DNA of 64,000 nucleotides, taken from assembly GCF_003813775.1 (NCBI RefSeq), contig NZ_RPDH01000003.1, forward strand, positions 434,001 to 498,000, read 5' to 3'. The position numbers were made by a program, and so were the translations under genes. How positions within the stretch are numbered: position 1 is the stretch's first letter; every line of letters starts with the position of its first letter. Shown here piece by piece: positions 13,383 through 57,135 of this stretch. This DNA is from Chitinophaga lutea. GTDB taxonomy: Bacteria > Bacteroidota > Bacteroidia > Chitinophagales > Chitinophagaceae. A model generated the notes under the pieces. The model ran no database searches, was not told the DNA's origin, and saw only the letters and a list, made by a program, of their open reading frames with translations.

Positions 13383-13592
13383 TCTTCTGTTGTATGCACC
13401 GGGGTGTTGTGATGGTTGCCGTGACCAGCAGAACGTTTATTGCATGCGCTATCTTTTGTTTTTTAGCATGAAGGTGTTGTGATGATTACCGTTACCAGCA
13501 GAACGTTTATTGCAGGCGCCCTCTTCTGTTTTTATGTATTAAGATGTTGTGATGATAGCCGTGACCGGCAGAATGGTTATTGCAGGTTACCC
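13371..13592. repeat. Tandem array with exact 70-bp period
   Basis: Copies can be anchored at GTTGTGATG in 13401-13410, 13471-13480 and 13541-13550, exactly 70 bp apart, each followed by a GTGACCAGCAGAACGTTTAT-like block and a GCAGGCGCC-like block. A partial copy precedes them (13371-13400) and overlaps the terminator right arm. The copies differ by scattered substitutions, so they are not recent. The third copy decays after 13592 into an unrelated TTACCC...GGGTAA inverted repeat. The 469-bp stretch 13305-13773 holds no convincing gene; open frames inside it are artefacts of the repeats. Confidence 0.8.
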
Positions 13593-28550: not shown

Positions 28551-28640
28551 CTTTTACCCTCAGAATCTCCACTCAGATCAAATTTTTGTCCATTCGCGTA
28601 CAATTTGCTGTCCGGTGGAGGCATCATCACGGCCAGGGGC

Positions 28641-28852
28641 GATTTTATCCATATTCTGCACTCATGCACATTTTTTCTCCACTCGTGCACATTTTGCCTG
28701 CGGGGTAAGAGGGACATTTACAGTGCGGGATAAAAAGGGCGGGCTTGGTCGATTTTAACCATATTCTGCACTCATGCACATTTTTTCTGCACTCGTGCAC
28801 ATTTTGCCTGCGGGGTAAGGAGGATTTTTACAGCGAAGGATGAAAAGGGCGA
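28641..28852. repeat. 110-bp tandem duplication with internal GTGCAC repeats
   Basis: Two copies (28641-28742 and 28751-28852) start at GATTTTA.CCATATTCTGCA and run through TTTTGCCTGCGGGGTAAG to AAAAGGGCG, offset by exactly 110 bp. Inside each, a 21-bp unit GCACTC[AG]TGCACATTTT occurs twice. They are not CRISPR repeats because there is no spacer diversity and only two copies. Confidence 0.8.
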
Positions 28853-55738: not shown

Positions 55739-55830
55739 ATCGCCGCAAATGCCCATCCGCGGGGCAATTACGGCCGTCTGCTTGTTAAGGGCTGGTTAAT
55801 CGAGACCACCGGGACAGCGTTTACGGAGTA
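55739..55830. other. Short intergenic lead-in to the tandem repeat array
   Basis: Nothing supported as a gene. It contains TTTACGGAGTATTTTATAGCG, whose last part begins the first repeat unit. Confidence 0.4.
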
Positions 55831-55892
55831 TTTTATAGCGTTCACGGAATACCGCTTTGTACCGGTTATTTACAGGCTTATCTTTACATCGG

Positions 55893-55952
55893 TTTTTCAT
55901 AGGATATGGTTAAAAATATTGAAGGGCGGTATTCTTACCGCCCTTGTTTTTT
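55893..55952 (+). ncRNA. Putative small RNA, repeat unit 1
   Basis: Promoter-like TTTG (55856-55859), 19 bp, TATCTTTA (55879-55886). A 10-bp perfect hairpin (AAGGGCGGTA, TTCT, TACCGCCCTT; 55922-55945) is followed by GTTTTTT. The expected transcript is about 60 nt and ends at the T run. The transcript also has a short open frame starting MVKNIEGRYSYRPC, so a leader-peptide reading cannot be excluded. Confidence 0.5.
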
Positions 55953-56090
55953 CTCCGCCTTTCCGCGCGTAACACTCCATCATCGCATTACAACATTCCA
56001 ATACACAATTCCGCACGTTCCCCTGATATTTTATATCGTTCACGGAATACCGCTTTGTACCGGTTATTTACAGGCTTATCTTTACATCGG

Positions 56091-56151
56091 TTTTTCATAG
56101 GATATGGTTAAAAATATTGAAGGGCGGTATTCTTACCGCCCTTGTTTTTTT
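56091..56151 (+). ncRNA. Putative small RNA, repeat unit 2
   Basis: Same core as unit 1: TTTG 56054-56057, 19-bp spacer, TATCTTTA 56077-56084, hairpin 56120-56143, then GTTTTTTT. The leader and hairpin are identical to unit 1. Confidence 0.5.
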
Positions 56152-56285
56152 GCCTTTCCACCCGCAGCACTCCATCACCACATTACAAACATTATAATAC
56201 ACAATTCCGCACGTTCCCCTGATATTTTATAGCGTTCACGGAATACCGCTTTGCACCGGTTATTTGCGGCTTATCTTTACATCGG

Positions 56286-56346
56286 TTTTTCATAGGATAT
56301 GGTTAAAAATATTGAAGGGCGGTATTCTTACCGCCCTTGTTTTTTT
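56286..56346 (+). ncRNA. Putative small RNA, repeat unit 3
   Basis: TTTG 56250-56253, 18-bp spacer, TATCTTTA 56272-56279, hairpin 56315-56338, then GTTTTTTT. The leader is identical to units 1 and 2. Confidence 0.5.
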
Positions 56347-56471
56347 CCTTCGGTCAGGCATACACTGCATCACTACTTCAGAACACACAATTTCCCGCGT
56401 TCCCTTGGTATTTTCCAGCATTCACGGAATATCATTTTACCCTGCTACTTCACGGCTTATCTTTATATCGG

Positions 56472-56531
56472 TTTTTCATAGGATATGGTTAAAAATTTGG
56501 AAGGGCGGTATTCTTACCGCCTTTATTTTTT
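56472..56531 (+). ncRNA. Putative small RNA or attenuator, repeat unit 4
   Basis: Most diverged unit: TTTA 56436-56439, 18-bp spacer, TATCTTTA 56458-56465, hairpin 56503-56523 with some wobble pairs, then ATTTTTT. The hairpin ends about 40 bp before the start of the Crp-like gene, so it could also act in that gene's leader. Confidence 0.45.
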
Positions 56532-56568: not shown

Positions 56569-57135
56569 ATGGAAAACATGCTCATTCAATATATCCGCTC
56601 TATTGTTACGGTGCCGCCTGCGGAGGCGGAAAAATTGCTGGATTTGGGGAAAGCTGTCTCTGTCCGTAAGGGCGATTATTTTATACACGAAGGACAGATA
56701 CCCCGCAAATTTGCATTTGTCGGCAAAGGCCTGTTCCGGTATCTGTATGTAGATGGAGAGGGGAGGGAATACACGAAGAATTTCATGCCGGAACAGCATT
56801 TTATCGCAGCCTACTCTTCCATGATCGCGCGGCAGCCTTCCCGTATGTTCATAGAAGCGCTGGAAGACAGCGACATCCTCGAACTGGATTACGCAGGATG
56901 GTTACAGCTGCTTCAGGGCCACGCCTGCTGGAGCCGGTTGCTCATCAGGATGCTGGAGCATGCCTTTTCCGTCAAAGAAAACCGGGAGCGCGACCTGCTG
57001 CTGCTTGATGCCGGGAAACGGTACGACCTTTTCCGCGCCGAATTCCCCGGGCTTGAAAAGCGGGTGGCCCAGCACCTGATCGCTTCTTATCTCGGCATCT
57101 CTCCCGTGTCGCTCAGCCGCCTGCGGAAAAAATAA
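56569..57135 (+). CDS. Crp/Fnr family transcriptional regulator
   Basis: 188 aa. The N-terminal cNMP-binding beta-roll is visible (GKAVSVRKGDYFIHEGQIPR, YLYVDGEGREYTKNFMPEQH, PSRMFIEALEDSDILEL). The C-terminal winged helix is short (RVAQHLIASYLGISPVSLSRLRKK). Many Bacteroidota proteins of this size do not bind cAMP; the ligand is unknown. The gene sits directly downstream of the fourth tandem repeat, whose hairpin is in its leader region. Confidence 0.88.
   Translation: MENMLIQYIRSIVTVPPAEAEKLLDLGKAVSVRKGDYFIHEGQIPRKFAFVGKGLFRYLYVDGEGREYTKNFMPEQHFIAAYSSMIARQPSRMFIEALEDSDILELDYAGWLQLLQGHACWSRLLIRMLEHAFSVKENRERDLLLLDAGKRYDLFRAEFPGLEKRVAQHLIASYLGISPVSLSRLRKK

Follow-up and report, generated by a model that had tools for sequence, protein, structure and literature searches.

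How are four tandem promoter–hairpin units in Chitinophaga lutea to be read, and what would their products act on? The units lie in the window, the 64,000-nucleotide stretch of contig NZ_RPDH01000003.1 analyzed here (positions 434,001–498,000, forward strand; assembly GCF_003813775.1), where a first-pass annotation had read them as a possible small RNA (sRNA) family with a leader peptide as the alternative. The reading we favor, with a probability of about 0.77, is that each unit is one tandem copy of a stand-alone gene encoding a trans-acting sRNA of ~60 nt, which would pair with the starts of its target mRNAs.

Four tandem units and their upstream boxes

The array spans positions 55818–56531, each unit comprising a −7 box (TATCTTTA), a leader, and a terminator hairpin with a T run on its 3′ side. 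Tandem Repeats Finder delineated a repeat at 55829–56531 (period 186, 3.6 copies, score 986) and a repeat finder independently returned four copies at a spacing of 197, 196, and 186, so that the tandem arrangement first noticed from the sequence alone is real. The −7 box, the leader, and the hairpin are indeed present in all four units, the leader reading GGUUUUUCAUAGGAUAUGGUUAAAA / GGTTTTTCATAGGATATGGTTAAAA throughout; the stretch GGUUUUUCAUAGGAUAUGG of the sRNA would be suited as a probe site for the family. The hairpin folds in each unit, with z-scores against shuffles of −3.2, −3.0, −3.0, and −2.4 for units 1–4, respectively. The wobble reported to preserve the hairpin of unit 4 was found as a G–U pair (AAGGGCGGTA/TACCGCCTTT) holding its stem, but the same unit, said to have lost most of the repeat, has not done so, sharing 82% identity with unit 3 across 157 nt. 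The individual features, all on the + strand, are:

55818–55827, +: upstream box 1 of unit 1 (CGTTTACGGA); sequence, GTTYAC enriched 69–71 nt upstream of family members
55839–55848, +: upstream box 2 of unit 1 (CGTTCACGGA), 21 bp past box 1; sequence, GTTYAC enriched 48–50 nt upstream
55879–55886, +: −7 promoter box of unit 1 (TATCTTTA); sequence, TAnnTTT box in 79 of 105 family copies
55889–55952, +: putative sRNA 1, leader and terminator (hairpin 55922–55945); model R1, 92 bits (in seed of R1), and fold
56037–56046, +: upstream box 2 of unit 2; sequence, GTTYAC enrichment
56077–56084, +: −7 box of unit 2 (TATCTTTA); sequence
56087–56150, +: putative sRNA 2 (hairpin 56120–56143); R1, 92 bits (in seed of R1), and fold
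56233–56242, +: upstream box 2 of unit 3; sequence, GTTYAC enrichment
56272–56279, +: −7 box of unit 3 (TATCTTTA); sequence
56282–56345, +: putative sRNA 3 (hairpin 56315–56338); R1, 92 bits (in seed of R1), and fold
56419–56428, +: upstream box 2 of unit 4 (CATTCACGGA); sequence, GTTYAC enrichment
56458–56465, +: −7 box of unit 4 (TATCTTTA); sequence
56468–56531, +: putative sRNA 4 (hairpin 56501–56524, one G–U wobble); R1, 88.7 bits (in seed of R1), and fold

Elsewhere in the window, a 110-bp repeat of 1.9 copies with short CACTCATGCACATTTT-like repeats inside is located at 28640–28851, and a 70-bp tandem repeat of 2.6 copies with 84% matches at 13403–13586.

Across the family, a TAnnTTT box 4–5 nt 5′ of the leader was observed in 79 of 105 copies, with 25 lacking it by pattern and one having it farther off. 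The first-pass annotation had also assigned a TTTG near −33 to each unit, a claim that is left with units 1–3: the corresponding position of unit 4 reads TTTTACC, without TTTG, and only seven of the 80 copies with a −7 box found (105 examined) carry a TTTG at a fitting distance. In place of a −33 element, and beyond what that annotation contained, we found two upstream boxes, direct repeats of ~10 nt at a distance of ~21 bp. The 103 distinct upstream sequences contain GTTYAC 92 times versus 6.9 expected, with 83 of these 92 occurrences between −71 and −69 or between −50 and −48; using a relaxed motif, both boxes were detected in 52 and one only in 39 of the 103 upstream sequences.

LytTR sites, as described in an excerpt of PMC4847170, consist of two repeats of 9–11 nt that are 11–13 nt apart upstream of the promoter, a common sequence being absent according to the same excerpt. 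The box pair of the family has this site form, a likeness of geometry alone. It suggests a single activator common to the copies, perhaps a LytTR-type regulator, which would act via the two direct-repeat boxes; the genome holds at least one LytTR-domain ORF (L290:21–548, C3:310020–310547). A strict pattern of the box pair matched 10 places genome-wide, unit 1 included, versus 0 and 2 in controls; it is insensitive, as it did not recover the remaining sRNA copies of this genome. On visual inspection, most of the nine further places fall within coding sequence, with L287 and L288 lying between ORFs.

Spread of the family and conservation of its hairpin

A DNA search of the assembly revealed that the core recurs far from the window, on contig C1. 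The exact 19-mer of the leader occurs seven times in the genome, four times in the window and three times on C1, and the reversed 19-mer used as a control yielded no match in the genome even with up to three mismatches. A covariance model (R1), built from 10 copies and including the four window units in its seed, identified 10 places in this genome at E ≤ 0.01. At the same threshold it matched 60 of 60 genomes of the genus, with 5–19 copies each, and 67 of the 98 Chitinophagaceae genomes sampled, where matches were weaker than in the genus and mostly showed the variant leader GGUUUUUCAUAGGAUAUUGG. Conservation of the core in relatives, on which the first-pass reading hinged, is borne out by these counts.

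On the level of the phylum, 27 of 296 genomes matched R1 at E ≤ 0.01, nine of them from the same family and 18 from outside it, the latter at E values of 7e-4 to 0.01 only. Among the 18 displayed loci from outside the family, TTTTTCATAG stands at the site only in L087, with partial likeness in L092 (AATAGGATATGG), and most of the other extra-family matches were therefore treated as chance terminators. The pattern GGTTTTTCATAGGATATNGG was found in at least 119 stretches in named genomes. The 80 matches listed all belong to Bacteroidota, judging from title or genus name, and include Chitinophaga pinensis, Niastella, Puia, Terrimonas, Ferruginibacter, Flavihumibacter, and Filimonas. In copies from outside the genus, the usual form of the leader is GATATTGGATT, and some have GATATGGTT, as in the window genome. 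The exact 25-mer had no match among viral contigs, and Rfam at its curated cut-offs found nothing in the window.

Some leaders at other loci deviate from the common form. In two other genera of the family (L086:1503–1562; L125:1222–1279 and 1503–1562), leaders of the type GTGTTTTTCATAGGTTATTGATTAATG seemingly stand between the family form and the FopS sRNAs discussed below. An sRNA-like leader (GGGTTTTCATAGGATATATGG) with a 3′ part unlike the family lies at L013:1504 (C3:310649 of this genome), ~0.1 kb downstream of the LytTR-domain ORF on the same strand.

We assessed conservation on 105 copies, 75 of them distinct, from 23 loci chosen because they hold copies. In this sample 98.0% of the hairpin cells are paired versus 85.3% in shuffles, and two-sided stem changes number 80 versus 17.5 in shuffles, a signal that is abolished by sliding the partner. 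The leader columns are near-invariant, and the stretch from the leader to the stem is variable in length and sequence. With copies across the genome, a covarying hairpin, and a conserved open leader, the sRNA family proposed in the first-pass annotation is supported as far as sequence goes, the window units representing one site of a multicopy family of putative sRNAs. These would be transcribed from about 10 gene copies in this genome, and copy number would set the dose.

A start-codon match and the competing readings

The seed complement TCCTATGAAAAA occurs 10 times in the genome, namely in seven sRNA copies and three other places, among them the start of a gene for a 191-aa protein (C1:443547–444119). 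This protein is probably secreted, judging from an apparent signal peptide, and has no Pfam match. The gene was chosen for the match of its start to a seed 12-mer in this genome, so the choice is tested by the other species alone. Orthologs were identified in 55 of the 60 genus genomes, and a search at E ≤ 1e-6 did not detect the gene in 96 genomes sampled from other genera. Protein homologs with an organism name are labeled Chitinophaga. For the 55 ortholog starts (50 distinct), which are not 55 independent tests because the species are related, the average duplex energy was −20.8 kcal/mol, with values of −20 or below in 28, −18 or below in 44, and −16 or below in 50, the remaining five being weak (above −16); in five of the 55, the nearest in-frame ATG replaced the aligned start.

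By comparison, 369 background ORF starts from 24 loci averaged −10.4 kcal/mol (sd 3.0), with 19 at −16 or below, six at −18 or below, and two at −20 or below, one of these being the 191-aa target itself; the ten background starts containing ATGAAAAA, target included, averaged −12.6 kcal/mol. With shuffled seeds, values were −8.2 (sd 1.4) for the first 30 orthologs and −8.5 (sd 1.5) for the remaining 25. Six control ortholog sets of 11–14 members had means of −8.8 to −14.0 without any of the 73 starts reaching −18, and in seven control sets of 1–2 members one start of 10 did so, that of the Crp-like gene of L274 (−22.5). Pairing is weaker for the 25 more distant orthologs, with a mean of −18.2 kcal/mol and five of the 25 above −16. 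The start sequences diverge between clades and mostly pair still: the region reads AACCTTATCCTATGAAAAA in one clade and AAACCATATTTTATGAGAACC in another, and both pair, AAACCATATTTTATGAGAACC via G–U wobbles. The open region that had been envisaged for target pairing thus has a start-codon match conserved in most of the 55 orthologs.

On the favored reading, the seed would pair with the start-codon region of the target mRNA and block ribosome entry, leading to translational repression over the start codon as for the FopS sRNAs (family of paralogous sRNAs) of Bacteroides. The best-supported target would be the 191-aa protein, found only in the genus within the sampled genomes. Since its gene was not found outside the genus and related sRNAs occur in many such genera, other targets must exist.

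A wobble-aware pattern matched 18 places in this genome, eight of which are sRNA copies; the remaining 10 compare with 11 in the control and are thus mostly noise. Candidate starts at these places are those of a DUF4230 gene (C1:156869, −22.8 kcal/mol) and of a small protein (C1:1461048, −16.7 kcal/mol). Among 729 ORF starts near the sRNAs of other genera, one strong match was obtained (L209, −35.6 kcal/mol), the rest being −21.2 or weaker; L209 was rejected as a target, its strong match being the complement of an sRNA-type leader. The DUF4230 gene (L325:1512–2123) lies ~1.9 kb from one RRM_1 gene. Moderate seed matches were also observed at start regions near sRNA loci of other genera in L187, L222, and L237 (−17.6 to −19.9 kcal/mol), in genes that we take to be gldK-like, and, within several genomes of the genus, for one gene (MKSQQL...) starting at L267:3447 (−), L269:4051 (−), L281:2683 (+), and L270:2837 (−), with −16.7 to −18.7 kcal/mol.

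The units could instead encode sRNAs whose leader is mainly a site for a protein, such as an RRM protein, or a sponge, the start-codon match being secondary. The genome encodes two RRM_1 proteins, the Bacteroides RRM protein RbpB binds the 5′ regions of FopS (PMC11697453, in excerpt), and the leader is conserved in genera where the 191-aa target was not found. The retention of start-region complementarity of −16 kcal/mol or below in 50 of 55 orthologs nevertheless renders this reading unlikely; an RRM-type protein might still assist the proposed trans-acting sRNAs.

The genomic surroundings bear on a further reading, in which the units are cis-acting leader attenuators or promoter–terminator modules whose read-through feeds the Crp-like gene at 56569 and, elsewhere, csaA. 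The last window unit ends 37 nt 5′ of the Crp-like ORF. One relative, L274, shows synteny with the window site and has a single copy there between an NmrA gene and a Crp-like gene, ~33 nt before the latter; given this single copy, the four window copies arose most simply by local amplification. On C1, the tRNA-binding-domain gene csaA is flanked by copies, one of them lying directly 5′ of csaA and facing it. Further C1 copies are located by what we take to be S9 peptidase and DoxX-like genes, and between presumed DUF2911 and cystathionine gamma-lyase genes. In relatives, csaA was present in 13 and all six cluster query genes in 10 of 20 fetched loci, each 20 kb long and picked because it holds copies. 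However, the other four copies of the csaA cluster are arranged tail-to-tail with the S9 peptidase or DUF2911 gene, or lie against DoxX on the opposite strand, overlapping its end, and the ORF list contains no identifiable sense gene for any of them. Four serial promoter–terminator units are unexpected for one attenuator, and the leader, not the hairpin alone, is kept whatever the neighbor. We therefore regard attenuation as distinctly improbable.

The multicopy nature of the units might also reflect transposition of a repetitive palindrome, extragenic or mobile, that is devoid of regulatory function. Six relatives have arrays of 4–6 copies with periods of 186–324 nt at seven other loci, in none of which the flanking genes of the window were found. 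Yet single copies keep the same places across species, the −7 box, upstream boxes, leader, and hairpin hold fixed positions, and the hairpin covaries and the target match is conserved, making this reading very improbable. A small peptide (MVKNIEGRYSYRPC) as the product, the alternative of the first-pass annotation, which had noted the ORF, has in its favor an ATG within the conserved GATATGG but is hardly credible. The frame of the stem with respect to this ATG drifts over all three possibilities (31/27/14 among 72 distinct sequences scored, of 75). Predicted peptides range from 5 aa (a stop after five codons is seen in 20 copies within the 40 commonest listed peptides) to the 60-aa limit of the script and have mainly the first residues, set by the leader, in common; most copies seen outside the genus read GATATTGG, without ATG.

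Relation to FopS and other small RNAs

The resemblance to FopS of Bacteroides thetaiotaomicron (Rfam RF04319), like the copies far outside the window, had not entered the first-pass annotation. As described in an excerpt of PMC11697453, FopS comprises 14 copies built from a single-stranded 5′ seed followed by a Rho-independent terminator, and the seed pairs at start-codon regions to block translation, thereby repressing SusC-like glycan transporters. Both families are multicopy (14 FopS copies; 10 here, 5–19 in the 60 genus genomes) and short, the Rfam model of FopS having 71 positions, and the family here likewise shows an open 5′ stretch with one terminator hairpin. The FopS 5′ end GUGUUUUUCAU has UUUUUCAU at the same place as the family here, and GUUUUUCAU and GGUUAA align with the units. 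In contrast, the leader here has CAUAGGAUAUGGUU in place of CAUNGUAUUAGAUUUAAGGUU, and the best candidate target is a gene other than SusC. The family here has tandem arrays and paired upstream boxes.

RF04319 scored the four units at 25.7–27.0 bits, far below its cut-off of 56, so that the family is FopS-like and not a shown member; the model had no match in this genome at E ≤ 0.001 and exceeded its cut-off in only two of the 296 phylum genomes. Conversely, model R1 placed 16 of 18 FopS loci above every other match (15.7–28.4 bits versus 13 or less; E 0.0015 to 0.39). A sequence-only model (R2), which has no base pairs, presumably owing to misaligned hairpins, matched two of the 18, with a chance match ranked second. 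By sequence the family is new, in its predicted working it is FopS-like, and common descent with FopS is possible.

GibS of B. thetaiotaomicron has its seed R1 in common with FopS and targets start-codon regions (PMC7366714, PMC11697453, both in excerpt); it differs in having a second seed (R2) and a promoter of type PM2, as against the many copies and TAnnTTT −7 box of the family here. Multicopy sibling sRNAs are also represented by LhrC, Qrr, the Cia-dependent sRNAs, and OmrA/B (PMC11697453, in excerpt). These belong to other phyla, and their likeness to the family here consists in the several siblings. They are known to be driven by response regulators. The top sub-threshold Rfam score, DapZ (RF02551; 31 bits versus a cut-off of 56), derives from the hairpin and GGUUA with the first stem missing and was taken as chance, as were MicX, STnc430, sraA, and other weak rows.

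Tentatively, the family may constitute an sRNA regulon driven by a LytTR-type response regulator and silencing a Chitinophaga-specific envelope or secreted protein; it might share an ancient Bacteroidota sRNA ancestor with FopS, having kept a seed antisense to AUGAAAAA start codons and exchanged its targets. Trans-acting sRNAs are documented in Bacteroides, and in the open-access literature we found no paper on such sRNAs in Chitinophaga or Chitinophagaceae. A many-copy family across a bacterial family, with an open seed and a concrete target, would extend start-codon riboregulation to environmental Bacteroidota and raises the question whether seeds of the FopS type represent the ancestral state of the phylum, with the tandem arrays of differing period in several species offering a natural dosage experiment.
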